A stretch of 64,000 nt of DNA from Sphaerolaimus hirsutus. Taxonomy: Eukaryota; Nematoda; Chromadorea; Monhysterida; Sphaerolaimidae. Of this stretch, positions 1,208 through 43,000 are shown one piece after another. Where the stretch lies: positions 24,910,315 to 24,974,314 of the forward strand of contig OZ038454.1 of assembly GCA_964036195.1 (NCBI GenBank), given 5' to 3'. The stretch's first letter is position 1. The number at the start of each line of letters is the position of its first letter. A program made the position numbers and the translations under genes. The notes below the pieces were generated by a model. It was not told the origin of the DNA. It did not search any database and saw only the letters and a program-made list of their open reading frames with translations.

Positions 1208-4200
1208 AGGTAGAAATCTCCATCTGTCAGCGCCCTGATCCAACACCTCGCAAGTGTTTGTGTACGTTGTGTAGGGCCTTCCACTGGCCGTGCCCCTGAT
1301 CGTGTACGCGCCGCCGCACACCACCACCAGGGGCCAGTTCCAGACCCTGTAAAATTCCATGTGAAATGTGAAATGTCATGCAAAGTGTCAAATGCCCTGG
1401 AAAATGTCAAATGTCAAGCAGTGTTTAAAATCATGTAAAATTCCCTGTCAAATGTCAAATGTCAGGCAAAGTGTCAAAAGTCATGTAAAATGCCCTGCAA
1501 ATGCATTTTGGTTGCCATTTTGCAGCGCATTTTACATGACTTTTGACATTTTGCATGACATTTTACATTTGACAGAGTCATTTCACAGGGTGTATGACTG
1601 GCACCAGCCCGTTGAACTGAGCGCTGGCGTGCTGGTACCGCGGCCGGTTCATGTCCGCCTGCGGCTCGATTCGATTCACCCGACAGAGTTTTGTCGGGCA
1701 GTTATACTTTTTGTGATGTGCGTTTGTTTGTAATTTTTGTGCATTTTTCTGACGGGATCTTTGCTCTTTTGGAGCCAGTAGGAAATTGTCTTCCAGTCTC
1801 GCTCCCGCGGGCTTGAAAATTCCATGTAAAATGCCAGATGAATTTATCAATTGTCCTGTAAGATACAAACTGCGCGCTAAATTTTTTCCCGCTTGCTCCA
1901 TTTTCCCGGTGTATATTTGGAATTGTACACTTAACAAATTTGATAAATTTTGTTTGACATTTTACACCCTAAATAGGTATTTTACATTTAGCATTTTAGT
2001 GCGTTGGGTACGGGACCGGCCCGAGTGCTCGCATCGCAACCATGGCACCGGGCATTTCAAGTGATCAACTGAGGCTGCCCGACGAAAAACATATCGGGCA
2101 AATTGAATCTAGCACCTGGCGCCGCCACGCGCCCGACTTTGGTTCGAGCGACCACGCCCCCGTCGATGCCCTACATAAAAATTTATGCTCTAGATTAAGC
2201 TTCACAAAGTGTGGAGATTTAGCTCCATAAAGAGCCCACACACACTAGTTGACATCGCAAACTAATGTCAAGTGAATGTCAACTAAAACAATAAAAAAAT
2301 TAAAGCAAACGATGAGAATTAAGTGTCACGATATGAAATGGTAATCATTCTCTATCACATCAGAAAGTTGAAACTAGGTACATAATTAACCAAAATTTAG
2401 TTGACACTAATTTTGATGTCAACTAGTCTATGTATGTGAGCCCAAAGCGATATTCGCCACTGCTCAGTCAGTCTCAAACGTAAATAAACTAGACCCACTG
2501 GACATCTCCTGGACACATGCCTCCAGTTAGCAGCACGTTTCCGAACGCGTCCGGCGCCGTGGCCGCGTAGTAACCGCACGCGGCTGCGGGAATCGGTACG
2601 GTGCGCCACTCGGCGCCCAGGTGCAAATTCCACAAGTGGAGCGGGGATGGGAAGTGGTAAGTGATTGGTGAAGTGGTAAGTGATGTGTCAAGTGACATGT
2701 TCACTTAATGTGTGTGCTCCGCGGACTGCACCATATGCATTTGTCCGAAGGAAACACGCGATCGCAACGTGATCTTCAATCAAATGAAAATTGTTCCAAA
2801 ATGTTCCAAGAATCTCCCTTTTCTTCAAATATTCTTCTTGTTTGTGAAAGTCCATGATTTATCGAGTAAGACATAACTAGTAATTTTAAACGCATAAATA
2901 CTGTTCTCTCGACCGAGTATAGCACTCAGACTCATTTCCAACCCCACTTTTCAATCAACCTCACTTGTCACTCCACCCACCACTTCACACTTCACTTGTC
3001 ACAGACAACTTTGCCCGCCACTTGTGCACTTGCGGAATGTGCACCAGCTCGTCGGGCAGGAGTTCGCAGGTGCGCTCGCCGCCCCCGCCGAACGCGTCGC
3101 CGCACAGCACGATGAAGGGTCTCCTGTGGATGATTGGAGAGGTGTTTGAGAGTTGTCAAGATTACCTAAGGTTGAGCGATGCAAAAGACGTGCATTTCGA
3201 AAGCTTTGTGAACCTCAATACCTACCTACATTCTGTCATCAACTTTTTATACGTAAATCCACCGTCTTATGCAAATACATCTTTATGCAATCTGTATTAA
3301 TACCGTATTTCCTCGAATTATCTCCCTTTAATTAACCCCCCTCGAAATACCCCCAGGTCTGAGCGAGCTGGGGAAGTAATCCCCCCCCCCCGAAATACCC
3401 CCTCGAAATAGGACTTATAGATTTATTCATTTATAATCGAGTCGGCATAGGACTGGATCAAATATGGGCAGAGGATTGGGTCGTTAAACGGCGTGGGAGG
3501 GCTCACAAAAAATACACCCCATCAAAACCCCAGCCAAAAACGAACGCATTCACAGTAGCCACAGTCACGGCGGCAACCCCATTGGACGCCTGCGTGCGCG
3601 CAGTGTTCATCCGGGGGCCCAGGGCCGCGCGCCAGGTGTCGCCCCCGTGCGCCGGCTGCACGATGAGCGTCTGCCGCGACAAGAGGCCCCCCATGTCCGG
3701 CGAGGCTCCGCCCATTATGTAGATCCGGCCGTCCATGGTGGCCGCGGTCTGAGTGTAGGGGGGGGGGTTGGTGGGGGTTTGGGGTTTGTGGTTCGTTTGT
3801 GTTGGGGGCGTGGTTTATAGCTCTTTCCTCACGTACCTAATTGGATTATTTTAATTAATTAGTGGCAAGTGTGTTAGCGCGATGTTTTTGTGGGAAGTCA
3901 GAACCCGAGGTTCAATCTTGAAAGCTAAGGAAGGAACGAAATATGTACGTAGAGGTTTAATATGTTGAAATGTGGAGAACCCTCTTTATAATATACGTAG
4001 GTGTTTTTTATTTTTAGGATCCTAGACAGTGTGTAACGACTGGGACAGGTCCATAATGTAAAATGCAAAAGTAAATTACATTCCACCCGATGGGCCCAGT
4101 ACCCATACAAGCCAGCAACAAACCCACCGGTTCCCTCATAATAGTTGGCCTGATGCCAAACTCATCGATAATCCGCGGGCTAGACATGCGCAAGGTGGCC

Positions 4201-4280
4201 GCGTCGTAGACCATCAGCGAGTCATCCCCGTGGCGCCCGTCCACCAGCACCAAGCGCTCGCTGGACACCCCCGCACCCGC
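1208..4280 (-). CDS. Kelch-repeat protein, internal exons (partial gene)
   Basis: Seven minus-strand exons read as one Kelch series: about 4280-4128, 3748-3546, 3123-3045, 2617-2517, 2170-2116, 1658-1605 and 1327-1208. Joined in this order they stay in frame and give typical blades: RIYIMGGASPDMGG, MNTARTQASNG, PFIVLCGDAF, NVLLTGGM, then SGAWRR followed by ADMNRPRYQHAS and VVVCGGAYTIRG, ending near EVLDQGADRWRFLP. Kelch blades form beta-propellers used for protein binding; the partner is unknown. Both gene ends are missing: the acceptor at 4280 implies upstream exons, and the donor after 1208 is uncertain. Introns at 3045/2617, 2116/1658 and 1605/1327 coincide with inverted-repeat elements flanked by CTG or CAG. 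Two of these lack an AG at the needed 3' site, so part of the locus may be decaying or may splice unusually. The family is clear; exact boundaries, especially 3546 and 2517, are inferred. Confidence 0.7.
1328..1604. mobile_element. Intron-forming inverted-repeat element in Kelch gene
   Basis: Ends GGGCCAGTTCCAGACCCTG and (opposite strand) GTGCCAGTCATACACCC, with CCCTGTAAAAT sub-terminal repeats. On the minus (coding) strand CTG stands on both sides, after GGG and before GTGGTG, so it is a 3-bp target duplication. Removing the element plus one CTG joins codons for FNGL to VVVCGG. The intron would be GT-TG rather than GT-AG. Confidence 0.7.
1659..2115. mobile_element. Intron-forming inverted-repeat element in Kelch gene (GT-AG)
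   Basis: On the coding strand the element begins GTGCTAGATTCAATTTGCCC and its other end, reverse-complemented, reads GCGGCTCGATTCGATTCACC. CAG is duplicated on both sides. Excision of element plus one CAG joins AWRRQ to ADMNRPR in frame with GT-AG ends. Internal GCCCGAC/GTCGGGC palindromes sit near both ends. Confidence 0.65.
2228..2443. mobile_element. Short terminal-inverted-repeat element
   Basis: The left end carries AGCCCACACACACTAGTTGACAT and the right end the matching inverted ATGTCAACTAG...GAGCCCA. About 215 bases, no coding capacity, lying inside a Kelch-gene intron. Likely a MITE. Confidence 0.6.
2618..3044. mobile_element. Intron-forming inverted-repeat element in Kelch gene
   Basis: Both ends carry GGTGC(A/C)(A/C)ATTCC(A/G)CAAGTG as inverted repeats. 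On the coding strand CTG is present on both sides (GAG-CTG and CTG-GGC). Removing element plus one CTG restores the blade CELLPDEL-GAEWRTVPIP. Read as an intron it is GT-TG; a GT-AG alternative using GCCGAG would delete three residues in frame. It contains a second, nested MITE at about 2717-2925. Confidence 0.7.
2717..2925. mobile_element. MITE, diverged TATACTCGGCGGAC family (F type)
   Basis: Begins near CTCCGCGGACTGCACCATATGC, then AAGGAAACACGCGATC, and ends CTCGACCGAGTATAG. It matches the copy at 6300-6769 in order of motifs but is clearly diverged. Nested inside the element at 2618-3044. Confidence 0.55.
3302..3420. mobile_element. Fragment of CCGTATT/CTCGAAATACCCCC element
   Basis: Starts TACCGTATTTCCTCGAAT and continues with C-rich CTCGAAATACCCCC repeats, the left arm of the family seen complete at 43700-44152 and 62708-63135. 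The right arm is absent here. It lies in a Kelch-gene intron. Confidence 0.6.
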
Positions 4281-4374
4281 CTGGGGCTCAATTCAACACA
4301 GAGTCGAGTGAGGGCAAGGGCCACGTGAGGGAAGGGATCAAAAAAGATGTGTGTGTGTGTGTGATGCGCCGTGA

Positions 4375-6786: not shown

Positions 6787-9700
6787 ATGTTAAGCACTTT
6801 CAACAGCTCTGGCATCGACCGCATCATGTACACGTTGGCATGTCTCGCTCTGGCGGCTATGGCTGTCACGTTGAACGCGCACTGCGCATTGGCAGTCATA
6901 GGCAAGTTCGGCCCCTCTGCTTACAAATACACCTAAATGCAACTGCACTTACGTCCGGAGTAGGGGTAGTGGGATTGAATGTAAATAGATGAACTAGGTG
7001 ATGGTTTCCTGCGTTCTCGAGTAGCAGAATTGGGTGGGTGCGCAGTGAACGCTCGGGAACCATTTGGCAAACTTTGAGCCTCAATATCTGGGTGCATCGC
7101 AATGTGCATCTTTCAATTGTAATATATTTACACCCTGCACGCATGGTTCCCTCTGGAAGCGTCCCAACAATTTTTTTACGCATGCGATTACCAAGTTTTA
7201 AAAAGTTTAAAATAGTCATCTTTGTTATAACTCCATACGTTAACTTATCCACATCAATGATTTGTTCATCTTTTACACAAAAATAGCACGCTTGATCATC
7301 ATTGGCACGCTTCCAACGTGAGACATAAATGGATGCGAGGGCAGAGTATCATGTCCACCGAGTATACCTTGGGCCACCCTCACTCCCTCATCTCTTTGAA
7401 TCACCCATTGATCGACATAATCCCTACAGATTGCAAGCCGTTGCTGGGGGACCCCCAGCGTTGTCTGGCTTTCTATCCATCTTGGTCAGGCATGTCACTA
7501 GGTTGCAGTCAGCGGCAGTGCAAAAGCCACTGCGCAGGTGAACATCGCGTCATCTACTGTAGATTGACATGTAAACTGCTTCCCACTCAAGTTCGGCACT
7601 AAAATTTCGTGGTGTATACTGCCCTTAGTATACACCGGAGGGGGGGGGGGGGGCTTGCGTGACTAACTACGGTGTGGGTCACCAAATATGCAACTGATTT
7701 GTGTATACCTAGTTTTGCTGTCTGCGTCAAGTGCAGCTCCGAAATGGTACGCTCACTGCAGATGCAAGAGCTCCAGCTGTGGGGGGGGGGGGTTAGAATG
7801 CTAGAATTCGGGGTGTGTAGTTATACACAGCATTGGGTTGGGCTGTTTTTTTGATGCAGTTTTCGTCCATAACAATTCTGGCACCAATTTTTCTACCAAA
7901 TCGCATCAACTTTAGCACTGGCTTCATTCATCCACATCAAGTTCACTACTTGACTGTGTTTAAAAAAAACCCTGATCCCTAAACCCCCAATTGTGACCCC
8001 AATGCCAAAAAATTTAAAAATAGCAATGCAAGATAACCCTTTCTACACTTCCATGAAATGTAGTGTATTGGGTGGGGTAATGATTTTAAAGTACCTCAAC
8101 ATCACCTACAAATTGAGCCCTTCACATACAGATCGTGCTGGCCGCTTGCCAATTCTTGACCAAGCTGGACAAATTGATCAGGCGGTCGGAATGATAACGG
8201 GGGCTGCTGATTTCTGGGTAGATGGTCATGTCAAAATTGGTGGACAGAGTTCTAAGAAATCGGACTGGTTTTACTCAAATGGAAACATGATACCTCACGA
8301 TTTGTGGCAGCCTGGTGGTATGTAAATAGCATATAGTAATATTGTAATAATAAAATACATTCAAGCCTACATTAGATACGACTTAGAACCATTAGGATGG
8401 AGCTACAGCATAATGACAAATCAAAGGTGAAACGTACAATACAAAATTGTCACTGAAAACATGAAAATGAAGAATTTTTCAGTGACTCTTTATTTTATGT
8501 TTCAACCTTTATTTGTCATTATACTGATAAATTGGGCTTACTACGTATTTTTATGTCCTTTTATTCATAAAAATACGGTAATATACGTATAGCGTTTAGT
8601 CTGAACCGTATTTTGTTTCGTTTTCCCAGAACCCTACAACGGATTGTTCGGTCATACGGGTGACGATTGTATCAAGGCAGGGGCCAGTTCCGCAAAATGA
8701 GTAGTGAGCAACGATGGGTAAGTTCTCCAAAAAAAAACACTTTCTGTGTTTTGAGTTTTTCAAAAATGAATACCTGTGTTTTGAGTTTTTTTCTCGAAAA
8801 AAACTTGAGTAACTCTGTTTTTATTTCTGTGTTTTTTGTAAAAACTCGAGTTTTTTTCTAAAAAACTTGAGTTTTTTCCAAAAAATTCGAGTTTTCCCCC
8901 CAAAAATTTCGATTTACAGCATTTCGATCTGGAAACAGTGGTTTTCTTATAAAATATTGGTTTTACACATGTTTTAACCCCACATAACATTTGTGTATTC
9001 ATTCAAGTGTCAAAAAAGTCCATAAAATGTCCACAATGAGGACATCAACATCACAACACCAGCAACAAAATGCCCAGAAACGACAATTTACGCAGTACTC
9101 CAAAATTCTTCAATGGATGTGCACTGTATGGAAGACTACGGAATTGATTTGAACTACAACTACCATTTACCTCAAAATACCCCCATGGGGGTTTATTATT
9201 TCATCAGAAAGTTTTCATCAGAAAATAGTAGGCATTTACGTACCCAAAACAGGTTGTAAATGCGTACAAACAGGATATAATTGAAATAAACATGTAGATA
9301 GGTACCTAGTACAGTAGTACACAACCTAGTACAGTCTATGTGTAGCTGTGATGCAAATTAGCAGTAATGTAAGGTCACGCGCCATGGCGCGCTGGCGCCA
9401 CGCCATTTTTCAAATGGCATAGCCAACGCTAGCAAACTAGCATTGGATCTGTTTAATGATGTCGCCGTGAAGTTAATGGCAACATCATTAATCAACACTC
9501 TGGTCCGATTGAGGGAAATCAGAGAAGGCGCTTGCGCTCATCTGAGCGCAAGAAAACGGGTCGCTACCCGTCGGAATGGCCGACGCGCAAAAGTATGCAT
9601 GCGCGACACGGCGGAAAACTACACTGCCATTGTAAACTGGCAGCGCCGCTCAGAAGATATACTCCGCGGACCGCAAAGTATGTGCAGAATCCTACCATAA

Positions 9701-12700
9701 TTTGATGAATAAAATCTTGCGGTGCTGCTTAATACTTGATATTTTATAGCAAAAACGAAATAGTTATGATGAAAGTATGCACAATTTCGTTCCTTTATTC
9801 AGATGGGTTATGGTAGGTTTCCATACTAAGTGTGATGTCCGCTGAGTATAGCCAAGTGGTTGCCTTCCACGCGACCCAATTGTGACCGTCGGGGCGGGCA
9901 AATGCACTCGCCTCTGCGCCAAAAAACGGCGCAGTAAATACTCAATGGCAATACGCATTTGCCACCCAAAACGGCGCTGTATCACCACATAAATGTGCTG
10001 TGATACAGCGCGTAATCTGTAGGGGCCAGCGGCGTGCACTATGAAGATGTGCAGTAGCCACATCTTCAAATCAAGTTCCAAACAATGGATGCAATGCATC
10101 TTCATAGTGCACTTAAATATTTAATTGTCTCGCCGTTTTCGTGACATGTTTGTGTCATTTAAATTTCATTCATTAAATTTTACACTCTGTTTGAGGCAGT
10201 ATAAATACAGTGCCATTACCCCAAACAAACAATCAGTTGCTAAATGGAAATAGAATTTCACCACTGAAAAGCCCTGTGTGCACACAATGGAACATCTACA
10301 GGAGACGCTGCAGCCCATGGCACTGGTTCAACTGGGCAACTGGACATGCTTGCGTGTCCACTGGCCCAAACTGTTCTTCTCAAGAAAACCTATATGTACT
10401 TGCTGATTGTTGGTTGGAGTAAAGGCACTGGTAACGTTTTGCCATTCTGGTAACCATGGTAATGTATTTGACGCATTTTCGATTTTGTATCCTACTTAAA
10501 AAACGCCCTGGAAATACCCACTCGCTCTTCTACTACCTACTATATTATGACACTTTTCGTTGTTTGTGAAACCCCTATAATACCTTTTTTATGAGCATGT
10601 TGGACACCACAAAATATCGTGGCACACGCCCGTTCTTTCAATAAAAAGATGCCAACATAAAACTACTTGACACATGAATTTAATTGCCTAATTAACCCCC
10701 CAAAAAACAATAGCACACTAATCCATTTGTCACATAAACAATCCTCACGCTTTCATGAGAAAAACGATTCTTGGGTGACACCTTCTGGCATACTCACCCA
10801 AGCCTACCCCTAAATAATGGCCCCCTGATTGGGGCTAGGCTCCCACGACCGGTCGGATTAAGAGTCCAACGTAATCTACAAATATAGATCCCCCCGAATG
10901 CAGCTACCGAGAACACGACCGCATGGGCATCGGCGACAGGATCGACAACAACACCACAACACCAACGCGGTGAGCGGCAATGCCGCCGAAAACAACTGTT
11001 AACAACCAGCGACAACAATTGTCGTCGCTGCGCGGCCAGCCCGAATGGAACCTGAATCCACTCTGCTGATAACACCGTCACAAGGGAAAAGTTGCTGGTA
11101 CCAAGCACACAGAAAACGACTCAGAAAAGCAATCCCCCCTGCACGCCTGGGGCGGCGGAATAACTGCCGCCGGATAGACCTTGACGCTATCGCGGCGTGA
11201 CGCCGAGCCATTCCAGCAACCGCCGACCCTGCTGCCAAGGATCTGCCTGCGACAGGGACACTGGTTTTCTTCTTTTTGTCTTTTTCGATTTGACTAGTGA
11301 AATGGCTGGTTGGAAATGGGCTAATGTATTTACTTTTACTCAAAATACGTATACCTGTATACTGAGAAAAACTGACTTTTTGGGTAGTGCATTTCACAAA
11401 AAAGTCACACGTTTTTCAATTATCAGCATTTAAATAGCGTGTTCCCTTACATTTGAAATACTGAAAATATGACTATTGCCGTTTTTTTGTCAAAACCAAA
11501 ATTACCTAAATAAAATAAATATCACTCCTGCACGTCAGGAATGAAATAAAGAATTCAAATGTTTACCATGTTATAAATTTTCTGATCCACTTTATATTTT
11601 AAAAACTTATAAAGTCCATCGAACCTTGAAAAGCTTTTCTAAAAAGTTAAAAACTGATTGAATTTGAAATTCTCGGTCAGGAACTATTTCCTGGCATCTT
11701 TACATGTCGCGTGTACTTTTGAAAAAAGCCCAGTGCGGCTTGGCTTCCCTGCTCAAGCATTTACACTACAGGACATTTTACATGACTCTTGACACTTTGC
11801 ATGACATCAAATAAGTCCAAATAAGAAACGACCTGCAATGCTTTACACAGAATGTTACCATTTTATAAAATAAATACATGAAAAGGAATATCGTTTCTGC
11901 TCGTCAGAAGCGCCCTCTTTTTCTAAATTTAAAAAGTCATTTTTATTCAGTTGGGATATGGTAGATTTCAATGCAAAGTTTTACCAGGTGGAAAAATGTC
12001 ACCAAGTGCTAGAATCCCACTGATAGACAGCGCCCCACAATTATAACCGCAATCAACCACTCACCTAGTCCACAGGCTGACTGCTGTCTGCAGCCCACTG
12101 CTGTGGCCGCGGTCCAGAAAATGGAGACACTCGCTCTTGGAGGATTTTTTTGGGACTACTGCACATGAGACTTGCTGGTGGCAGGTGGGACTGGAATGTC
12201 ATCCCCGGAACCATTTCTCGTTTTTTTTCTTGTTGTGAGGTGCGGATCGCAAGTGTGAAGATGTGTATAATTTGTGACACTTGTTTTGAATGGAAGTGAC
12301 TAGTTCTAAACAGGATACCTTCTTGTGGTCCAAGATCTAAACAAACGATAACCAAAACAAATAATCAAACTTACTTTTTGACGTATAAAAGCGTGTCCCA
12401 GATGTCCTGAGACACCTGACGAAATCGTGAAATGAACACTTTTGTGTATGCAAAGACCTTCGACACTTACAACTCAAAACACAAACCTGTATTAGGAACA
12501 TGGTGTGTTCCAGAAGTGGTGGGACACCCCTGAAACACAATATAATCACAATCGTAATTTCACCGCGGCACAAAATCTTTGAAGCACACAGAATCGACCC
12601 CCCAGAAGCTGCAGACCAGTGAGGATTTACGTTTCTGATCAACTCGTGACTTCCCTGCATTCCAGCATCAAGTGGGTGGGGCCAGTTTTGTTTATTTCCT

Positions 12701-15700
12701 TCTCTGAACTTGTGCTGCTTTCAATTCTTTGGGACTTTGTTTGATTTTTCTACTTTGAGTGCCTTGCTTTATTTCCACAATTATGCTTGTTTGAATTCCA
12801 CCTCTGACGTTGCTTCACACTCACTTGTTCACCATTTTGTAAGCCGTTAGTAAGTTGTAAACTATTGTTGTATGCAATCTTCACAGCCACTATGTTTATT
12901 TCTGCTGCATCTCATTCCATGGCCTTCATTTTCTGCCCTGTATTGCTCAGAAGAATGTACCATGGTATTGAATTTGCAGAGTTATTTCATAGTTTGGACT
13001 TTGAAAACTTTCTCAAACTTTCTCTTTACATTGTTTGCTGCAGGTGAAGCCTCAGCTCAGTGTTTCATGGGGTCCCACAGATGCTACTCACATTAGCATG
13101 GCACCCCACTGTAATACTGCGCTTGACCTTCGCATGTCGGCAAGCCTCCTGGGTGGCTACATTCCTAATGACACCTTTTACCTGACCTTGGGTCTTGAAA
13201 GTGCTCTGAAGTGTATGATGTCCCCCAGATGTTTGTCATAGGCCTGGAATTAGCACCCCTGGAGGTCAAAAAACCAGAAACCGTCCATTTTTGTGCTTAA
13301 GCTAGCCACTGGGGGTTCCAGGGCTAGCGCTTATGCAAAAGTGGCTTGTCGCTCTGCATGTGAAGCATGCACTTACCAGTTCAGCTCTTCGGTCAGCCAC
13401 TGGTGGACCATCATGGCTGCACGCCCTGGCAGAGGGGGCGCTCACGTTGCAGCCGACTGAGCCGAAGCGCCGACTTACTCGCATCCCACGAGCGTCGAAT
13501 TCTGCCCTCACATATTGCCATAACCGCTTGGTGGGCACGCCCCAAATTCAGGTCGACCTTGCTTCACCCCCCTCCCCAGCTGCTGGGAGGAGAGGCTTTT
13601 TGGCTAGAGCAAAGCAGTGGGCGTGCGCGCTCGCCAAAAACTAGCCCCCCTGCTGAGCCAACCGCTGTGTCAATATGTGGGCTTCTGCCCCGCTGAAAAA
13701 GTGCCGTCTATCCCGACAGTGATCGACGAAGGGCCGGAACCTGCAGCCAGTTCCCTGCTTACTGTTTGCTACTTCTCAACCCCAATTGCAACTGGGATAG
13801 CAATTGGAACCCACAACAAAACAAAAACAATCTATTTTTTCTCATTATTGATTTAACCAATACATCGTTTTTCCTGATTTTCTCATTTCTGCTTTATTGC
13901 TTCATTTGAGGTGTGCTAATTGTGCTACATAACTTGCGTTTTTATTAACAACCCCGAGTCAACTCTGCTTGCAGACCGGACTCAACTCTTTTCTCTCGAA
14001 AACAATCTGTCCAAGCCTTTGTCTTAAATGCTTCACCTGGTGCTAGAATTTGTACTTACAACCAAGAATCAACTCTGCTTAGGCAGACTGGGTTCGACTC
14101 TTTTTTTCTCAAACAACTACCTGTCCATAAAAAACAACAACAAAAAACTAATGTGGAACAAGACTCACCAGACAAGACAGACAAAAAAACCGTACGAGGT
14201 GAAACTCTGTTCTAACGACGCAAGGAACAGGTAACCTAGCACGAAAATATTTCCACTCACACCTGTTCACCCACCATGTATTTCCACTAGACTTTATATT
14301 TCTTTTCCAATTTTACCATTTGATATTACCATTTGGTGACAGCTAAAAAACACCCAAGGATGTTTTCAGCGTAGGAGGGGCGAACTCTTTGTTGAAACAC
14401 CGTGGTTTCATTTTTCTCTGAAAGGGTTCCAAGGAAAACTGCAAAGACTTTATTTATAAAACATTTCGACAAACAAAATACAAACGTTGGTTTTATTATG
14501 ACTTATACTTTGCCCAAATTTTAGTTATGGATTTATAGCACTTTTATTATCTAAAACGACAACACTTTTTTTGGACTACCCACTGCAAAATGGGACAATT
14601 TGCACCTGTAAAAACCAAAAAACAAAAACAAAGAATGGATACAGGGTCAAGAAAATCAAATTTCAGGGTTCTGACTTTTCATCACCCATGTCCATGAGGG
14701 CAATTAACGGTAAATGGTAGCGGTAATCGGCATAGTACGGTACGGTAAACCTCTGGTTGTCAAAAATCAAAAAAATGTCTCTAGCTGGGCTCTTTCTTCT
14801 TTTTCATAAATTGTGGCTACGATAGTTTTCTTTGGAACATATGATCTCCTGGCCAAGTACTGAATTGGATATTTTTAAATCAATCAATCATGTCACTCAG
14901 TAAAATTTTTAATATAGATTTTACCCAAACACACCATATAGATATTTCTTCCACAAACGTTTTTTCATTTATGTCAATTACGTATATTACGTTTACTACT
15001 CTCCATCAAAGGAAAATTCATGGAATTACAGGCTTGAAACTTTTCAAAAACCAGAATGAAATTCTGTCTTCACTCAACGTTTACCCTTAATACCCTTAAT
15101 ATTTTCATTTGTTTTAAACTTGTTTTAGAGTTTTTCAGCCCCAAAAAACATTCTAGCTGGACTAGAAGGCTGTGGGGCTGACACTAAAATTACGACCACT
15201 CTTGTCCTGACACTTCAGAACATCAGGAGTCAATACCCGAAATACCCTTGCATTTTATCCACCTTTCAGCTATTTCCCTTTTAGATGTTAAAAACCATAC
15301 TGAGTTGAACTGTACCATTACCCATTTCCCCCACTTATGACCAAATTTACTTTGGTATGACATTGATTTGATCGGATTTTTTATATTTTTTTATTTTCTA
15401 TAATCACCTGGTTTCATACATCAGAGTTGTTAAAAAAATACTAGACTTCATAAAAGTCTACATATATATCAACTTAAAGCAATGGCAGAAAACATAAAAA
15501 CCACACTTATAAACTTTTCTTGTTCTCATATTTAAGTGAATGGGCGCAACTGCTTTTTTTTCAGAAAATACATTTTGATGACTTTTGCCCCATCAAAAAT
15601 CATCAAGTCTCATACCCTTTATATGAACCGCTTCATATCCATTACTTCAAATCATTTCCTATTTTTTTAGCTATTTGCGCCATTTGTTTAAAGACCATTT

Positions 15701-18700
15701 TGGATGTTATTTTTCCACTTTATTGACTTATACGCATAATTTATAAACCCATACACACCCTATCTGGTGTTTTATACCAATGTACTCTCAACATGACCCT
15801 TGTATACTCGAGTATTTTTATTATTATTTATATATGCGTACACTTTTTGACAACTCTTTTGTATGCTTCCAGAATCCTGGGGCCAGGATTTTCTCTCACC
15901 AGGGGGAGGGGACGGACGGTATGGCTATATGGCTTCAAATTATTCATTCTCACATCAAATTTCTCGATTAAACTGCGAAAACATCAATCTTCCAAAGTAC
16001 TATTTGCAAAATCACCTAAAAAACTTTGAGCTAAAATATCCGGCCCTGTGGATTTTGCGTTGATTTTGATTTTTGCCCGCAATTAGGACAAAGCATCTTT
16101 TCACTTTTCCGAAAATACTTAAACTAAAATCACCAACCTCCCTCATAGACCCCGGATTTATCTACCTGTCAATTGACTTTCTAAATTCATAAAAACACCT
16201 AAAATCTCTACACCGCACGTGAACTTTTGGCACAGAAGCAACCATGTTGACCGGAGAAACAAGTACGTCAGCTAGGTGCTTAGCATGGTATGCCTTGTGT
16301 CGGGATTTTGCTTGTTTGTGTGTATTCTGTTAATTGCAATCCCAGTATTATACGTTTCATGGAGAATTTACCAATTACTCAACAAATTCCCTCGTTTCTA
16401 AATTTTAAAACGATGCTTCAAAATGTAGATAACGATTTGACTTTGGCAACCCGTTCTCCACTGGAACCAGCCGACATGACCCAAAACGATGACCAGCTGG
16501 CGGAAGCAGTTGACCTACTGGTGAAAGCGAAACACGACCCAACGCAGCACTTACGACCACTCCAAATCGCTTATAACACGATGCTGCAATTCCTCAGCAA
16601 TATTGTCATGGACGACGAATCCCGCCAGCAGCTCAAGAGTGCAATGGCAGCAATGAAAGTTGACTCGTTGCTCAAGATTGTTGAAATACAAGCCCGGGTC
16701 GCGTCAGCTGCTGCTACCCGCATGGCAGAAGACCTGCTGCGAGAGCATGTGTGCCAGCCTACGACGGATGGCACCAGTGTCATGCTGGCACCAACATCCA
16801 CATGTCAGAGGAGGCCGGCCGTACCCGAGACCATCACGGCACTAGTGAATGAAATCCACCCACGGCCGAGGCTTGATGCACCGCGCACAAATGCAATCCC
16901 TCAGACACGCAGCAGCTACAACTCCTCCAATAGGGCCGAACCCCGCAGTCAGGCGTTCAACGGGATGTGCTGGAAACTGCGACTTGCGGCCCTCCAGCGC
17001 CGCGTGAACCTTTTCAATGGAGAAGAAAGTCAATCTTGGGCTATGTTCATCGAATCTTTCGTCACAACTATGAGATCACTCGGCTTGAGCGAAAAGGAGC
17101 AATGTGACCTTCTACCACCATTCCTGTCTGGCCTGGCCCTGCAATGCTATGAGGAGCTATCTGAAGTTCAGCGGACGGACTGGAGAGAACTTCGCTGCGC
17201 CCTTGATCGACGTTTTGACACCCCAGCCAAACGTAGCCTCATGCGATGCGAGCTCGATGCGGCACGCCAAGGCAGTCTACCAATAACCCGTTATGCAGCG
17301 CATGTGCACCGCCTAGTCCGCGCGTTGAATCCAACAGACACACCTGCTCAAATCGCCCAGCGCACTGGTGAAAAAGTATTCTGCTCCATGAACCCAGAGC
17401 TAACAGCACTTGTGCGCCTACAGTCATTGCAGCCACCTGATGACTTCCAGCTACTTATGGTTCTTTTGGAACAATTGCAGGAGAGCGCTACCTGCATCAG
17501 AAATGCCAATCTGGGTTGGGGAGGTAATGGCACCCGAATCAATGCACTGATGCCTGCTCCTGCTTCAGGGACTGCAAAAACAGAGGAAGTACCAGCACAC
17601 CAATGGAGGCTTCCAACAACTAACATACGCCAAGTCAATTACCTGGGACGTACAGCCACACCCACTGCTGATGCCACAAGACAGCCAAACAACATTCAGC
17701 TGAGCCGCACCCGTGACGGCCGCGGTGAAAGGCGCACCCAGGAGCACTTGCGATTTAGACCGAGGGAGCGAGCACAGAACCCAGAACAAGAGACAGCGGA
17801 AAAACCTACCAAAGACCATGCCTCTGAACGTCAGGAACCACAAGCTATGGCGTCACCCAGCTACAAACCACGAGTGATCCGCAAGGTGCAGCATGTCCAG
17901 CAGGATAATGTTGAAATCAGAGAGGATTCAGAGTCTAGTACTGATGGTGAATACAATTTGACTGTGCCAAAAGGAGAGATCCCAGCACTACTTGCCATGC
18001 TGCAGGAATCAAATCCAGGACTGACCATGGAGGATTATGAGTGATCAAATAGGGTAACTCGGCATCAATCAAGTGAATATATTTGGTGACAGGATTGCCA
18101 TGTCATGTTCCATCCATGTTCTCAAAGTGCAACCTTCTATGTTATAACTTTTCTTTCCAAAAAATCCACAAAATAGTTTCCAACCATTATCCAATGCATG
18201 CCGTGATAACCCTTCCTTTTTTACTCCCATTTGGTTCTCTGTGCTTTTTCAACCAAAGCAACCACAGGCTGGCTCAGGCCCACAAGCTGATGGGCCAGAA
18301 AGGCAACTCTGCCTGGTACGTAGCCCAGAGCCTAGCCGAGTTCTTCAGTCAGGGAGAACAGGAAGTAGCAGTGAGAGAAGTGAAGTGTAAGCAGAACAAG
18401 GTGTAACCTGTTCTGGTATGATTTCTTTCTTTTTTTCTGAAACACTCAAAAAAAAACCCACGACACCTCCACTCTTCAAATAGAATACCTCCCACCAACA
18501 AAATGCAATGTTATGTCTAATGCACATCACTCTCAGAATGTCAATCTGAAAATGGTGTTAAATATACCTGAAATACCCAGAACCCAAAACTTTGAAAACA
18601 TGATTCAATGTCTGCATCTGTATGTATGATTTTGCATGTGTACAATTTTCAGACACTTTGCACATTTCTGTGATTGTTAGACAATTATGTTATGGGAATA

Positions 18701-21700
18701 TGAGAACCCACCTATGTATGCCATCCTATATGCCACACAAGATAAAATGTCTGAAAGAAAGCCCCAATGTCTTCAAACCACAATTGATAGGGAACTCATA
18801 CACCCATTGTTACAATTGTATTTTGTTTTTGCATTACTTCTGAAAATTGAAAAGTGAACTTCACCAGCCATAGGCACCCAATAATGTATTCTATATTGTG
18901 TAGTGTTAAAGGGATATCCACTCTATTTTCTGTATTACAATGAATCGTTTAGGAAAATCTGTTTGCTAGATGTACTGTCATGCTGTATTATTGTGACTAC
19001 CCTGGATCCTATGATTTTCTGTATGGACCGACCACCAACTGTCAACTATGCCATTCCACAAGAAGAAGAAACCCGCTATTACTCAACAATGGCTGAATTT
19101 GCGGCCATTGGAAAGCTGAGTCTGCAACTGTACCAACACAATGCGCAGCAACAGGTCATCAATGCACAGGTGTGTGTGAAATGGCAGGAAATTCACACCA
19201 GACACACATTGCTACACCAACTACGACAATATTACTCATGTGCCAATTGTCATATCAACTGACTCCTTCACCGACCCATGTGGAATCAATGATTGTGGCA
19301 AATGCCTACTTCACCATCATTCCTGAAAGGAAGATCATGTTTGGGGCAGCAGCAGCTACAGCCACACTACGACAGCTTCACGAGGACCAAATGCAAAGAT
19401 CCTACTTTGACAGGCTAATGATATCTCGCTGCAGGATGCTGGAGGCATTGCGCGCCCTGACAATAGCCCAACTTTGAGCAGATTCCAGAGATGGCGCGCC
19501 TTATGTTACAACACCAGTACCCAATTTGGTTCTGCCAATGACTTCCACATTTGGTTCTGCTAACCGCGGATGAATGGAACATACAAGTCACTGCCAATGG
19601 ATGTGACAGTGAACAAATGCACTGGACACATCCCCATTCAATTTGATGCCGTTGAACCAGGGCCGTTCTATCCGGATACAACCACACTGATAATTACTAG
19701 CCAGACCTATGAGGTGACATGCTTACAAGCTGATGGACAACAGGTGCAACTCCACGATGCAACCTGGCACTGTGACACAGCTACAGGAGCACTCCAGAAA
19801 TTACCAGGACTACCACTGATGCCACTTCCATACCAATCCAGCATCATTGCTGCCAAATGCTGCTTACCTATGGCTATACAAGCAAAACTGACCTACAATG
19901 TACTGGATATTGTAATGAAATCAATGACATGGTGTGACTCCATGGATTATGAAGCAGACTTCAGTGGTCAAACAGCACGGAACAAAACCACTGCCAACCA
20001 CCAGCTGCCTGCACAGAATACTGCAGTTCCAGGCCTGAGGGTGGACACAGCATAGTCAACAGAATACACCATCGCCCATGACATGACCAACAGCACATGG
20101 ATATGAGCTCAATTCTACCACCCGGAAGATGCTGGACATGGCCACAAGCTGCTGGAACAAACATACCCAGCAGAAATGCACAAAATTTTTGCTACGATTC
20201 ATTATAAACAAAACTGTAACATTCGCTATTATTGGCACATTAGCGGGCATGAACATGTATAAGATAATTGGTTTAGCAAACATTAAGAATGTGGATAGCC
20301 CTAAGACAGGATAGATTTTGTTTTCCCCAGAGTGGTGTAGGACATATTCACACAAATTTCAAGCTCATTACAATTTCCTGTGTACTGGAAGATCTTCACT
20401 GCAAACCTCTGCTTTTTGGTCAAGACACCATTGCAATACTCACGTATTTTGTATGTTCCGAGCACTTCTAGTTTATGGAGATAGTAATGAGCCTATAACT
20501 CACCCATTGAAGTGATTGATGCATTTAATTGTTTACTGGAGGTACAAGCCAAAGTGAAAATATATTTCCCTGCTAAGCAAACCCAAAGTGGAACCACTTT
20601 CTTTTCATTAAACCCAATGGTTTGTACACCCACTTTGTGAGACTGTCTGATCAATGTATCCTACACGAGGCCGTAGTAGGCAGCATGGAGGGCCGCAATG
20701 TAAGGTCACGCGCCATGGCGCGCTGGCGCCACGCCATTTTTCAAATGGCATAGCCAACGCTAGCAAACTAGCATTGGATCTGTTTAATGATGTCGCCGTG
20801 AAGTTAATGGCAACATCATTAATCAACACTCTGGTCCGATTGAGGGAAATCAGAGAAGGCGCTTGCGCTCATCTGAGCGCAAGAAAACGGGTCGCTACCC
20901 GTCGGAATGGCCGACGCGCAAAAGTATGCATGCGCGACACGGCGGAAAACTACACTGCCATTGTAAACTGGCAGCGCCACTCAGAAGATATACTCCGCGG
21001 ACCGCAAAGTATGTGCAGAATCCTACCATAATTTGATGAATAAAATCTTGCGGTGCTGCTTAATACTTGATATTTTATAGCAAAAACGAAATAGTTATGA
21101 TGAAAGTATGCACAATTTCGTTCCTTTATTCAGATGGGTTATGGTAGGTTTCCATACTAAGTGTGATGTCCGCTGAGTATAGCCAAGTGGTTGCCTTCCA
21201 CGCGACCCAATTGTGACCGTCGGGGCGGGCAAATGCACTCGCCTCTGCGCCAAAAAACGGCGCAGTAAATACTCAATGGCAATACGCATTTGCCACCCAA
21301 AACGGCGCTGTATCACCACATAAATGTGCTGTGATACAGCGCGTAATCTGTAGGGGCCAGCGGCGTGCACTATGAAGATGTGCAGTAGCCACATCTTCAA
21401 ATCAAGTTCCAAACAATGGATGCAATGCATCTTCATAGTGCACTTAAATATTTAATTGTCTCGCCGTTTTCATGACATGTTTGTGTCATTTAAATTTCAT
21501 TCATTAAATTTTACACTCTGTTTGAGGCAGTATAAATACAGTGCCATTACCCCAAACAAACAATCAGTTGCTAAATGGAAATAGAATTTCACCACTGAAA
21601 AGCCCTGTGTGCACACAATGGAACATCTACAGGAGACGCTGCAGCCCATGGCACTGGTTCAACTGGGCAACTGGACATGCTTGCGTGTCCACTGGCCCAA

Positions 21701-25624: not shown

Positions 25625-26760
25625 TATCATGTACACCGAGTATAACGTATTTATGTTTACTCAAAAAGTTCTACTCGAGTACTGAGTAAATACGTTTATG
25701 TATACTTTGAAAAATGTACTCGCATTTATGCATACTTTTTGAAAGTACTCGAGTACAGAAAACGTATTTCAGATAGACTTTGTTATAGGCTTTTACAAGG
25801 CATAGATGGGAAAAAATTAAGAAAAACGCAAAAAATAGGAGAAATTTTTTTTCAAAAACAGCTGAAAGTAGACAAATAACCAGAGTTGTTCAAATACTGG
25901 TATTTTTGGAAAACGTAAACGTAAACGTAAATACGTTTTCAAATTTTGGAGTATAAATACTAAAACGTAAGGTATTTTTTAAATGCCTGGGGCCAGATTT
26001 AATACTCCCTACAGATTTGTAGGGTAGGGCAGACAGATTTTTTAAAGTTTAACCGCATCGACGCACATGCACCAAGAGCAAGGTGGTTCGTAAAATATAC
26101 AAAACCATCCCTTAAGGTTGCCGATATTGCAATATGATGTATATCACTTCGATTTTGGCCCGGAAATCACGATTTCGTCATTTATTGGCCGTCTGCCAAT
26201 TCGTTTTTTATTTTATTTTGTCGGGCGGGTTACTCGCATAGGTCACGCTTTTGTGTAGTCAGGGGGTCACTTTTTTAGTGTTCACTGTCTGCAACCGAAA
26301 CCATGAGGGCAGCGACAAGAAAGAAATGCATGCATGAGCGTACAAAAGCGCAACTTTTGCGAGTAACCTGCCCGACAAAATAAAATAAAAAACGAATTGG
26401 CAGACGGCCACGAAATGACAAAATCGTTATTTCCGAGCCAAAATCGAAGCGATAACCGTCATATTGCAATATCGGCGACCTTAAGGGATAGTTTCGTGTA
26501 TTTTATGAACCGCCTTGCTCTCGGTGCATGTGCGTCGATGCGGCTGAACTTTGAAAAATCTATCGGGCGTACGCCCTACCCTACAAATCTGTAGGGAGTA
26601 TTAAATCTGGCCCCTGGGAATACGTAAAATAAAACGTAAATGTAAAAAATTTTATCAAGTGCTACCACTATCAGTTAATATAAAAACAACGTTTTTACAA
26701 CATTATCTATTTACGTTCCTATTATCTTCATTGACATTGATATTACCTATATTTTAAACA
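25625..26760. mobile_element. Mosaic of ACGTAAAC-rich (D-type) MITE pieces
   Basis: Repeated words GTAAACGTAAACG, TACTCGAGTAC and GAAAACGTATTT match the hAT-like D family complete at 28632-29132. The block is interrupted at 25990-26613 by a different element. Confidence 0.5.
25990..26613. mobile_element. Harbinger-like MITE with CTG duplication (624 bp)
   Basis: Begins GGGCCAGATTTAATACTCCC and ends with its inverse GGGAGTATTAAATCTGGCCC, with arms of about 280 bases. CTG flanks both sides (25987-25989 and 26614-26616). The GGGCCAG end and CWG target match the intron-forming elements, but this copy is intergenic. Confidence 0.75.
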
Positions 26761-31526: not shown

Positions 31527-32578
31527 GGTTGGCAAAATCTCAGAAAAGAATAAAAATAAAATAAAAATAAAATGGAAAATTGAAGAATAAAATAAAATAA
31601 AATAAAATGGAAAATTTTAAAATAAAAATAAAAATTGTATAAAAATTCCAATTTTTGTAAAAATTTTGTAAAATTGTATACAAATTCATATTTTTGTAAA
31701 AATTGTATAAAAATTCATATTTTTTGTAAAAAATTTTTTCTGTTGTTTATAGTTCAACCTGTTCATTCGCGGAGCTGGGGCAGTCCCAAGCCATGTAAAG
31801 TGTCAAAATGTCATATGAAATGGAATGGAAAGTGTCAATTAAAGTGTCAATTATCATAACAAATATAAATTAAAGTGGAAACTGTAAAGCAAACTGTATC
31901 CAAATCTTATCTTTTGTATCAAAATCTTATCTTTTGTATCCAAATCTTATATTTTGTATCCAAATCATATTTTTTGTATCCAAATCTTATATGTTGTATC
32001 CAAATCTTATATTCTGTATCCAAATCTTGTTGTTTTGGTCACCAAATCTTATGTGAACATTTGGATACAAAAACATAAGATTTGGATACCAAAACATAAG
32101 ATTCAGATACACCATTTACACTCTGCATGACATTTGTCATGACAATTATAAATACTTTGCTTGACATTTGTCATGACAATTGACACTTTGCATGGTGTTT
32201 TACTAAGGCGCCCAGCACACTCCAGTAATCCTTCTACTGAAAATGCAAACCATTCTTATCGATAATTGTAAATTAACACTTGCAACTATTTAGCTAACAA
32301 TACCTACTGCATGCAACTTTTGCAAAGTAATGGAAAAATTTGTCACACGTTTTTCATGTTTAGGTCTAATTATCACATTTTTCTGACCTTGCATGCAAGA
32401 TTCTGATTTTTTGTAAAATTTCTGTAAAATTTTTGTAAAATTTTTGTAAAATGGTCCATTTTATTATTTTTTTTATTATTTTGGAATAAAATAAAATAAA
32501 ATGAAACAAGAATAAAATTAAAATAAAATACATTTTTATACAATTTGTATACAAATGATTTTTATAAAACCAACCCTG
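31527..32578. mobile_element. GGGTTGGCAAAATCTCAG element, AT-rich, with nested repeats
   Basis: The left CAGGGTTGGCAAAATCTC is mirrored loosely by AAACCAACCCTGG at the right. Arms are AAAATAAAAT and ATTTTTGTAAAATT runs. It holds a CTGGGGCAGTCCCAAGCC end near 31783 and the tandem array at 31895. Confidence 0.5.
31895..32040. repeat. 20-bp minisatellite (GTATCCAAATCTTATATTTT)
   Basis: About seven tandem copies of a 20-base unit, then two inverted units (TTTGGATACAAAAACATAAG) at 32058-32105, so it forms a large hairpin. Confidence 0.8.
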
Positions 32579-34116: not shown

Positions 34117-34205
34117 ATTGGCGGACATCACACTTAGCACAGAAATTTACCATAACCAATATGAATAATGAACCAAACATTATACAGCTTTTTTCATCAT
34201 ATTAC
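34117..34205. mobile_element. Partial E-type MITE after the mucin exon
   Basis: TATTGGCGGACATCACACTTAGC, then ACCATAACC and AATAATGAACCAAA, match the right half of the E family in reverse. Confidence 0.55.
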
Positions 34206-40676: not shown

Positions 40677-41010
40677 CTGTAGATGGGTAAATCGCTCCAT
40701 CTGCACCACTTTCTGTTTTAAGTGTGGCGAAATCCAATTACGCTGGTGATTCTGGGGGAGTCCCAGACCCTGTAAAATTCCTTGAGAATGTCAAATCACA
40801 TGCAAAGTGTCTAAAGTCATGCACAATGCCCTGGAAGGTGGCAAATCTTTGCCATTTTGCTGAGCATTTTACATAAGTTTTGACATTTGCATGACATTTT
40901 ACATTTTACAGGGCATCTAACAGAGTCTGGGATTGGCACCAGAGCTTGCACTCGCCCTGCCAGTTTCAAAACGTGTGCTTTGCACAGTTGTTGCAAGTGC
41001 GTCGTCAGAA
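40677..41010 (-). CDS. Candidate exon pair around an intron-forming element
   Basis: On the minus strand a 75-base exon (40751-40677) lies between CCCCCAG and the donor CAG|GTATTT and reads HQRNWISPHLKQKVVQME plus seven more residues. The element 40939-40752 precedes it as a GT-AG intron. The sequence just upstream (about 41010-40940) is open in the matching frame, with QQLCKAHVLKLAGRVQAL, but it has no clear acceptor. Family unknown; the splice sites are the main support. Confidence 0.3.
40752..40939. mobile_element. Intron-forming family element (188 bp)
   Basis: On the minus strand it starts GTGCCAATCCCAGACTCTG and ends GGGTCTGGGACTCCCCCAG, with CCCTGTAAAATG sub-terminal repeats. Ends and size match the neuropeptide intron at 42629-42823. 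The flanking triplets are CTG and CAG, so the duplication is imperfect. Confidence 0.6.
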
Positions 41011-41812
41011 TTCATCACAAAAGAAATTATAACGACAAGGCTACACAAACAAACAAAAAGTGTTCAGCATTTGAACACATTTATGAATATCTACCCAGTA
41101 TTCCATGTGTAAGTGCAAGCGTGCAGTCACTTTTTACGTTTATGTTAAATATTTACGTTTATGCAAAAACACAAGAATATTGTTGGCTGCAGGTGGTTCG
41201 GCCCATTTGAACATGTGCATGTGTGAATGATCACAAGTTTTTTTGTACGTTTTTCCCAGTACCCGGGTATTTTGGTGAGGAAAACGTAACAAAACGTAAT
41301 GGTATTTTTGGAAAATGTAAACGTAAGTATAAATACCCGAATAACCGGGTATTTCAGGTAAACGTAAATACGTTTTTCCAACTCTGCCGTAAAAGCTCCT
41401 GTAGTTTTCGAGATATGAATTTTACGTCCAGATTTCACAATTTGTCGACATCATTTATCGTTGGATTTGCTGACAAAGTGAATTCTTGAGATAAAATACA
41501 GCAAAAGTCATACCTCGAGAAATTTATATATCTAAGCGTTCTTGTGTATTTGTAAGTTATCGAGACTGAATTTGTCGTTAAAACTTTCTGCCTGGAAACT
41601 TCTGCCCTGCGGGACATAAAATCAAAAATATGAGGACTCACTTTAGCGACTGCAGTAGATCGAAGTCGTAGCTGTCGAGTGGAGAAGGACGTGTGTCCCT
41701 GAAAAAGTGAGGCAAAACGTGTTTGTGATCTGCTGTGAAGCATCGTGAAGTGCCTTGGGTATTATTGCTCGGCGTCCCTTCACCAACTGGTTTTCTGCTA
41801 CAGTTTTTACAT
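41011..41812. other. No gene recognised; ACGTTTTT palindromic element at 41245-41392
   Basis: The element carries CCCAGTACCCGGGTA and ATACCCGAATAACCGGGTATT palindromes and matches 27165-27325. No exon can be supported in the rest. Confidence 0.45.
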
Positions 41813-42009
41813 ACCGTATTATTAGCTTGAACAATTCCCGTGGCCGTGGGGGATTATCTTTTCGTCAGAATTTTTCAGGGCGGAACTATTCAAGAGGGGG
41901 AATCAATCATTCAAATAGGGAACCATTCAAACGCGGAATTATTTTTTTGTCGAAATTTTCGTGCATGTTCCTATCAACTCATATCATTAAATATGCATTA
42001 TTAACAATA

Positions 42010-42469
42010 TACCGTATTTACTCGAATAATCCCCCCCGGGGGATTATTATTTCGTCAGACCTTTTTGAGGGGGGATTATTCAAGGGGGGGAATTATTCAA
42101 GTGGGCGAATTATTTTTTCATCAAAATTTTCAAGGGTGTTACTTTCAATTCATTTCGTGAAATTTGCTATGTAGGTATGTAAATGTGTGTACACACACAT
42201 ACACATGTACGTCCCGTCGCCATTCGTTGTGCATATTCCATTGCATTTTTTGACACCGGATGTGCATTCGCTGAATCACACCAGACGCAGCTATTTGCTT
42301 GCTCTGGCGTCTTCGATTGGTTTTTAAAGATATATGGGTAATGTTTTTCGTCCATCGGGGGGGGATTATTCGAGTGGGGGAATTATTTTTTCCTCACTCG
42401 TCTAACAGGGGGGGATTATTCGAGGGGGGGGATTATTCAAGGGGGGGAATTATTCGAGTAAATACGGTA
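42010..42469. mobile_element. CCGTATT-family element, complete
   Basis: TACCGTATTTACTCGAATAATCC at the left and GGAATTATTCGAGTAAATACGGTA at the right, with G-rich GGGGATTATTCGAGGGG arms. A partial second copy starts at about 41813. Confidence 0.7.
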
Positions 42470-42574
42470 ACAAGCCATTTTCGTTCACACGTGACCCAAA
42501 AAATTTACCTAATATATGCCTGGAGGTGGCGATTATTCGAGCGGAAATTTTTTTTCAACAAAACCAGTAAGTAC

Positions 42575-43000
42575 CTGTAAAAGTGTCCACCAGGCACGAG
42601 CAGCACATTGGGGGCACGCTTGCCGAACCTGGTGGCAGTCCCAGACCCTGTAAAATGCCCTGTAGAATGTCAAATGTCATGCAAAGTGTCAAAAAAGTCA
42701 CGTAAAACACCCTGCAAAATGGCAACTCGGTTGCCATTTCGCATGAAACTTTCCACAACTTCACACACTTTACTTGACATTTTCCATTCCACCTGTCAAT
42801 TTCCCAAAGTCCACAACTGCCACCTGGGTCTTCCAGCGGCGTCGGCGCGCGCCGCCAGATCGGACAGGAAGGAATGGCCGCCGGACGCGTCGAAGCGCTT
42901 GCCGAAGCGGGGCCGGGACATCGCGTCCGCCTTGGCCGCCAGGCCGACCAGCGAGTCGGCGAGCGCGCAGCTGCACAGGCACAGCAGCAACGTGGACACG
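42575..43000 (-). CDS. Putative RPRFamide neuropeptide precursor (two exons, partial)
   Basis: Exon A (43000-42824) follows the acceptor CCCCCTCAG and opens with a hydrophobic leader, STLLLCLCSCALADS, then SLVGLAAKADAMSRPRFGKR. Exon B (42628-42575) ends at the donor CAG|GTACTTAC. Joined, the junction reads GRPR|FGKR, giving a second RPRFGKR. Each RPRF-Gly-Lys-Arg is a dibasic cleavage plus amidation site, predicting two peptides ending RPRF-amide. RPRF-amide is typical of invertebrate NPF peptides, but the spacing and double copy do not match a classical single-copy NPF precursor. The initiator Met exon and 3' end are missing. The 195-bp intron is an inverted-repeat transposable element. Recognition is by motif, not homology search. 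Confidence 0.6.
42629..42823. mobile_element. Intron-forming element in the RPRFamide gene (GT-AG)
   Basis: On the minus strand it starts GTGGCAGTTGTGGAC and ends GTCTGGGACTGCCAC plus CAG. CAG is duplicated on both sides (42824-42826 and 42629-42631 in plus coordinates). The first element base provides the donor GT and the duplicated CAG the acceptor AG. Excision rebuilds RPR|FGKR exactly. Confidence 0.8.

Follow-up and report, generated by a model that had tools for sequence, protein, structure and literature searches.

A 64-kb stretch of DNA (contig OZ038454.1, 24910315-24974314; called the window here) from a source genome of 348 Mb, which appears from its gene content to be that of an animal, was found to carry elements with terminal inverted repeats (TIRs) exactly where the coding sequences of three genes are interrupted. 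These elements and their relatives elsewhere in the genome are most probably introners, that is, small non-autonomous NuwaI-like DNA transposons that would be removed by the spliceosome, with TG tolerated at the 3′ end of some copies and AG acquired later. As judged from DNA sequence, the splicing of the copies, its spliceosomal mechanism, the use of TG, the maturation to AG and the mobilisation by a NuwaI-type transposase are each putative. Similar copies were found at coding interruptions of many unrelated genes, in the window (E1 and E5 below) as well as among sampled copies, and the boundary of the copy coincides with the coding junction in 5 of 5 cases in the window and, among the sampled joins, more often than in controls. 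The original prediction, that elements of the miniature inverted-repeat transposable element type act as introners, is well supported beyond the window, by 14,791 matches to the element ends, genes restored across the junctions and a bias in orientation relative to the coding sense.

Five intragenic elements, each with a 3-bp duplication of CAG or CTG, had been expected to sit exactly at coding interruptions of a Kelch-repeat, a C-type lectin and an RPRFamide precursor gene, and an intergenic element to have a CTG target and the end GGGCCAG. All five intragenic elements are present and have TIRs, and in 5 of 5 the excision of the element with one copy of its target-site duplication (TSD) joins the reading frames. 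At the intergenic element the CTG flanks were confirmed on both sides, GGGCCAG occurs at both sides and 40 of 40 terminal bases match. Boundaries are given below in the sense of the gene.

E1, 1328..1604, minus strand: Kelch gene; element 1331-1604, sense CTG copies at 1605-1607 and 1328-1330; GT...TG
E2, 1659..2115, minus strand: Kelch gene; element 1662-2115, sense CAG copies; GT...AG
E3, 2618..3044, minus strand: Kelch gene; element 2621-3044, sense CTG copies; GT...TG, or GT...AG with the loss of 3 codons
E4, 8681..22984, plus strand: C-type lectin gene; element 8681-22981, CAG copies at 8678-8680 and 22982-22984; GG...AG
E5, 42629..42823, minus strand: RPRFamide precursor gene; element 42632-42823, sense CAG copies; GT...AG
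E6, 25990..26613, no strand assigned: intergenic; CTG on both flanks

The inverted-repeat scores of E1 to E6 were equalled by 0, 0, 1, 0, 3 and 0, respectively, of 19,903 random pairs of window positions bounded by CWG (W, A or T). Recognised exons of the window, which make up 2.2% of the bases and 3.7% of the CWG sites, contain 5 of the 6 elements with identical CWG flanks; this enrichment (P ~4e-7 by CWG site, 1e-5 when all ten copies in the window are counted) was computed post hoc on an incomplete exon list. To extend the analysis to the whole genome, CWG plus one end of the family to which E1 and E5 belong was searched for with at most 2 mismatches. This pattern gave 7,376 + 7,415 matches, 14,791 together, and the reversed-pattern control gave 0. 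As each copy has two ends, this count suggests a copy number of about 7,000. Chance is rejected by the inverted-repeat background as well as by the genome-wide count.

A sample of 94 element loci was assembled from 4 loci (one of them E1 of the window), 30 from the pattern search and 60 further regions covering 64 of the 70 other places listed by the search. At pattern-derived loci CWG is fixed by the search design at one flank and the other flank is free. In these loci 101 paired elements were delimited, and the predicted CWG duplications were borne out: 57 elements had identical CWG flanks and 15 more differed only in W (13 CTG..CAG and 2 CAG..CTG). At the empty sites reconstructed for the 57, G follows in 38 and C precedes in 34, indicating a preference for CCWGG; by comparison, G follows 23% of CWG sites in the window. 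When short repeats were scanned for each of the 64 possible TSD triplets, CWG did not stand out, and other triplets yielded at least as many hits. The abundant family is asymmetric, with one GTGC end and one GGGG end in 42 of the 57. Read with the GT end first, an element runs from GTGCCAGTCC to GACTGCCCC, followed by the 3′ target copy.

Next, in 70 elements that have CWG at either side and sufficiently long flanks, the precise join was set against joins displaced by 1 or 2 nt, on the basis of coding score. The precise join came out best in 39 of the 70 and, among the 23 with a score of 8 or more, in 19. With random excisions at the same loci, which may themselves touch exons, the unshifted join was best in 516 of 1500 and 86 of 195, respectively (Fisher p 3e-4 for all, 4e-4 at scores of 8 or more). 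From 67 elements 262 candidate junction-spanning open reading frames (ORFs) were obtained and 30 of them were sent to Pfam. A match at E 0.05 was found for 14 of the 30 joined ORFs, with homology across the junction in 9; a PDB search contributed further cases.

Junction-spanning, above the Pfam cut-off: AMP-binding (L061); OSCP1 (L014, twice); calpain III (L056); leucine-rich repeat (L012); G protein-coupled receptor, GPCR (L035)
Junction-spanning, below the Pfam curated cut-off: cadherin (L029); C2H2 finger (L026); VWD (L021)
Junction-spanning by PDB search: Na,K-ATPase (L048), 90 residues without a gap; UBE2O (L089), weak, E 0.002

Together with E1 of the Kelch gene, homology spans 12 junctions. 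Five of these are GT...AG from CAG..CAG flanks, two are GT...AG from CTG..CAG, four are GT...TG (OSCP1, calpain, GPCR and Kelch) and one, the zinc finger, is GG...AG. At the GT...TG junction of OSCP1, 42 residues align on 42 profile positions, and at that of the GPCR 94 residues align on 94; the precise join of the zinc finger fills 24 of 24 positions, with only 17.8 bits. Pfam matches of L072 (DUF4834, E 0.02), L044 (GDT1), L065 (sterol-sensing), L091 (Tudor) and L048 were excluded from the count because they were doubtful or fell short of the junction. A SIRT6 match (L050) was likewise set aside, as it does not reach the junction, and the calpain ORF had no match at E 0.01 in the PDB search.

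Canonical splice ends throughout are not supported: only E2 and E5, 2 of the 5 window elements, are GT...AG, and their AG is supplied by the duplicated target CAG. Where the target reads CTG in the sense of the gene there is no AG at the acceptor. The effect of orientation was assessed on sampled copies for which the coding strand had been decided solely by codon score (a score of at least 5, exceeding that of the other strand by at least 5). Among 22 such coding copies, 20 have the GT end first (p 1.2e-4), and the proportion was 20 of 23 at a looser and 14 of 15 at a stricter threshold. Classified by 5′ flank, donor and acceptor, they comprise CAG, GT, AG (10 copies); CTG, GT, AG (3); CTG, GT, TG (7, including OSCP1 and calpain); CTG, GG, TG (1) and CAG, GG, AG (1). 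It thus seems that selection has left hardly any copies without a GT donor in coding sequence, but has left copies without an AG acceptor. The case for removal of GT...TG copies as well rests mainly on this bias towards GT first, with GT...TG copies retained (7 of the 22).

The following course of events may be proposed. An element mobilised by a NuwaI-type transposase would insert into CWG (core CCWGG), often within coding sequence. Its GTG end would bring the 5′ splice site and its GGGG end a C-rich acceptor tract, the last bases of the acceptor being provided by the duplicated target. CAG^G (caret, splice junction) within CCWGG is a proto-splice site. A GT-first insertion into a target that reads CAG in the sense strand would yield a canonical intron at such a site, CAG^GTGCC...CCCCCAG^G. 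A GT-first insertion into sense CTG would yield GT...TG, which is probably removed at that boundary too and tolerated, until a later change of T to A in the 3′ copy slowly turns it into GT-AG. We regard as about evenly balanced the stronger proposal that the spliceosome routinely uses a TG 3′ splice site in transposon-born introns, such that each CTG insertion makes a GT...TG intron at once, hundreds of them reside in functional genes, and they mature by the single T-to-A change in the 3′ copy.

Flank classes were examined for traces of this maturation. Among 93 oriented elements, 28 are CAG..CAG, 27 CTG..CTG, 12 CTG..CAG and 2 CAG..CTG, the other 24 being without CWG on one or both sides. The two mixed classes differ in number (12 vs 2, p 0.013). 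In the full set of 101 paired elements they number 13 vs 2, and chance mutation should give equal numbers. A CTG..CAG copy could be a CTG insertion with a T-to-A change in the 3′ copy, or a CAG insertion whose 5′ copy has changed. At the Na,K-ATPase gene the codon that is kept is CTG, for Leu, the 3′ copy is CAG, and a solved relative also has Leu at this position; on this account the original target was very likely CTG. In exact matches from the whole genome, coding and non-coding copies mixed, the ratio of CAG to CTG in the sense flank is 815:557 at the acceptor end and 686:587 at the donor end, the CAG excess being stronger at the acceptor (p 0.005 for the difference). The classes were not clearly distinguished by identity to the nearest neighbour (medians 86.3% for CTG..CTG, 84.5% for CTG..CAG and 87.9% for CAG..CAG), and with medians so alike no age order of the flank classes is established.

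Several points weigh against the introner reading as set out above. In the random-excision control, too, the share of cases in which the unshifted join was best exceeded one third at scores of 8 and 12 (0.44 and 0.47); it was 0.24 at a score of 16. In the sample, 29 of the 101 paired elements do not have CWG at both sides (27 have it at one, 1 at neither, and 1 has an identical ATG duplication); 90 of the 94 loci lie on one contig (C1), and the sampled copies all have a near-exact end. Only 22 of 67 elements passed the codon-score thresholds, and the cadherin, C2H2 finger and VWD homologies are below the curated cut-off. GG-first coding cases do occur (E4; L026, a weak match; L052, by codon score), and the sole CTG, GG, TG copy (L091) conflicts with its Tudor match on the opposite strand. 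Finally, an AG within 45 nt that keeps the frame, with the element's own GT as donor, was looked for in 10 CTG-sense coding cases (the 7 codon-scored copies, L035, E1 and E3), and in 5 of the 10 it is present and usable with a gain or loss of codons.

This last observation bears on the explanation that copies flanked by CTG, or inserted GG-first, undergo canonical splicing at GT or AG sites close by, few codons being gained or lost, which we consider rather unlikely. In-frame canonical splicing would be available to E3 (minus 3 codons), E4 (plus 2) and calpain (plus 3), the donor available to E4 being a poor GT 6 nt inside, and gain or loss of codons is reported at introners (PMC9860276, in the part consulted). 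E1, L031, L035, L072 and L074, however, have no in-frame AG within 45 nt for their own GT. For E1 the single in-frame canonical option in the searched range uses a very weak exonic donor, replaces FNG by five residues and lowers the Kelch_1 score of the fragment of exons E, F and G from 35.6 to 25.1 bits. E1, L014 and L035 each have an acceptor of their own, TTTTACAG, 19 nt inside the 3′ boundary, but joined to the donor at the GT end it shifts the frame, and the options at OSCP1 alter residues within the Oscp1 match.

The same five of ten cases that have no in-frame AG within 45 nt would fit another explanation, by which only CAG-flanked copies are introns and CTG-flanked coding copies stay unspliced, as recent gene-breaking insertions or in decaying genes. 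It appears unlikely. GT-first coding copies at CTG are nearly as frequent as those at CAG (7 plus 3 CTG..CAG against 10, of 22), whereas GG-first copies are rare; such copies lie in conserved genes (OSCP1, calpain) with frames open on both sides; and of 1273 exact genome matches, in which coding and non-coding copies are mixed, 587 have CTG as the flank at the donor end.

Removal guided by a hairpin and independent of splice sites is a third explanation, either as RNA excision resembling SOS splicing or as DNA elimination. SOS splicing, known in Caenorhabditis elegans, requires inverted repeats and is indifferent to splice sites and to orientation. In predicted transcript folds the ends of E1, E2, E3, E5 and E7 do pair strongly, with 18-32 expected pairs between the first and last 40 nt against 0-10 in six further introns of these genes (two of the eleven, E7 and one of the further introns, being tentative), and the boundaries are not always GT-AG. 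Orientation should be irrelevant to hairpin- or DNA-based excision, and the finding of 20 in 22 coding copies with GT first therefore argues against it; AG is also favoured at the acceptor end. We regard this explanation as improbable. That the copies are ordinary old introns with transposons inserted inside, whose CAG^GT...CAG^ consensus mimics a TSD, is scarcely credible: the splice consensus alone predicts CAG duplications at GT-AG introns and so accounts for the CAG copies, but CTG duplications cannot be derived from it, the inverted repeats begin exactly at both boundaries, and the same ends recur at thousands of places.

The elements had been called Harbinger-type, and this stands in part: the CWG target agrees with that of NuwaI, a group within the PIF/Harbinger (PHIS) superfamily, and no transposase with matching ends was found in the PF13359 loci that were opened. 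Elements of NuwaI have CWG TSDs and TIRs of 12-61 bp that usually start with GGG, and are reported solely in animals, one crustacean among them (Han et al. 2015, PMC4482050, as far as this source was available). The present elements resemble them in the TSD and in TIR length and, in part, in ends of the GGG type. CWG is duplicated identically in 57 of the 101 paired elements and with a difference in W only in 15, one has ATG and 28 do not fit; GGG starts both ends of E6 and one end each of E1 and E4; and the ends of E1 to E6 exceed the background over the first 40 nt, exact TIR lengths not being fixed. They differ from NuwaI as described in that one introner end is GTG, not GGG, and supplies the donor, and the sections of that description available to us do not mention intron formation. 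With CWG as TSD they do not have the TWA of PIF/Harbinger sensu stricto.

A matching autonomous copy would be expected to carry a DDE transposase and a Myb-type ORF and to end in GGGGCAGTCCCAGACC or GTGCCAGTCCCAGACC. None of the 15 PF13359 loci opened, of 163 matches, had the introner ends as its own termini, and we therefore call the elements NuwaI-like and not NuwaI. Twelve of the best PF13359 loci (L095-L106) form one family with the left end TGGCCCC, L107 and L108 a second with the right end GGGGCCA, and in L109 no ends were identified. L095-L106 represent an abundant Harbinger-type family, L097 being 97-99% identical to ten others and 89% to one. Its TGGCCCC end stands beside AAT- or ATT-like bases, and the match to its transposase exceeds the length of the profile by about 190 bp and has in-frame stops, perhaps an intron. 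L107 and L108 (98.8% identical) are copies of a Harbinger-type repeat in which an introner-family copy is nested, at 541-733 of L107.

The window elements had also been taken for one family. Their target and end motif are common to all, their interiors are not, and they fall into five groups. One interior is common to E1, E5 and E7 and to parts of E0, E8 and E9, and the interiors of E2, E3, E4 and E6 are unlike one another and unlike E1. E0, E7 and E9 are degenerate copies with non-identical flanks. E7 would be GT...AG if it is transcribed with the RPRFamide gene.

E0, 1074..1169, no strand assigned: short copy adjoining the last recognised Kelch exon; flanks CAG and CTG, non-identical
E7, 40755..40939, minus strand: lies downstream of the RPRFamide gene and may belong to the last exon of that gene; non-identical sense flanks CTG..CAG
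E8, 23650..23728, plus strand: partial copy, with CAG before it, lying downstream of the lectin gene
E9, 31778..32205, no strand assigned: degenerate copy with CTG as left flank; the right end is eroded, with an uncertain boundary

The host genes, and a retroelement nested in one copy, are as follows.

Kelch-repeat gene, 1210..4300, minus strand: exons A to G recognised, about 250 codons, split by E3, E2 and E1; both gene ends unresolved
C-type lectin gene, 8140..23110, plus strand: exons ~8140-8317, 8630-8680 and 22985-23110
RPRFamide precursor gene, 41642..43003, minus strand: exons ~43003-42824, 42628-42575 and 41698-41642
Long terminal repeat (LTR) retroelement nested in E4, 9366..22145, plus strand: LTRs 9366-10814 and 20697-22145, 1449 bp, 99.8% identical

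The Kelch gene matches Kelch_1 at E 3e-11. The lectin was identified by weak PDB matches (best E 0.011) and has no Pfam match, and the RPRFamide precursor has two RPRFGKR motifs and no Pfam match. E4 consists of about 1.5 kb of element broken by the retroelement, which is young and 12.8 kb long; its gag ORF (16284-18044) carries the domain PF03732, and no pol domain was recognised among the few ORFs scanned. Searches of a protein database with the Kelch protein and with the gag ORF returned no match; DNA patterns from the window matched neither viral contigs nor contigs of prokaryote genomes, and Rfam had no match. The intron between Kelch exons D and E holds an inverted-repeat element of about 220 bp (2223-2444), away from the splice sites, whose ends, located by eye, are near GAGCCCACACACACTAG; the end resembles that of the L095-L106 family. 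Elsewhere in the window, two related imperfect fold-back palindromes of 1.46 kb (49273-50734 and 58686-60141) are 81-87% identical between arms and copies, positions 1-640 form a degenerate tandem repeat of TTGACATTT-like units, and an open frame at 32856-34256 is rich in Ser, Gly and Thr and mucin-like.

The origin of introns is a long-standing question. In this animal genome a single element has inserted thousands of times, and the TSD often still reveals the codon that stood there before the insertion. The opposite strands of the target motif amount to a natural experiment: with one and the same element, and at times within one gene, CAG obtains a canonical acceptor and CTG does not. The AG rule, along with its loosening and its restoration, can thereby be put to a direct test; should TG use and maturation prove true, the birth and repair of introns could be read directly from the TSD pair. 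The system also connects introners with hallmarks of a named group of transposons, the target of which, CCWGG, is in itself a proto-splice site. A literature search returned no paper tying CWG, NuwaI or Harbinger to introners; its coverage was partial and prior publication is possible.

Among known systems, the introners of Gozashti et al. 2022 (PMC9860276) are non-autonomous DNA transposons that bear TIRs, are flanked by TSDs and give rise to introns in many genes; they are enriched in genes and GC-rich motifs, and range from copepods to protists. The present copies are like them in that one splice site comes from the element and the other from the TSD. They differ in the CWG target and the PIF/Harbinger link, neither of which is described in the portions of that paper available to us, the word being absent from its main text. 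The non-canonical ends given there are only rare GC and GA 5′ sites, whereas here the target strand would set the identity of the acceptor and give rise to the GT...TG class. Introner elements of Amoebophrya, a dinoflagellate parasite (PMC7789003, consulted in part), likewise have inverted repeats, direct repeats of 3-5 nt at exon boundaries and many non-canonical ends. Their ends are very varied and, as far as that account goes, have no general link to a transposase, whereas the present system belongs to an animal and has one target motif and a defined dichotomy of GT...TG or GT...AG. In tunicates such as Fritillaria the spliceosome tolerates sites other than GT/AG, and introner transposons with weak splice sites are given as one possible source in the part of the work consulted (PMC13326754). 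The likeness is that of an animal lineage with sites outside GT/AG, which are here predicted from DNA. Beside Fritillaria, the exceptions shown here are transposon copies, six other introns having been placed at GT-AG by choice and not by test.

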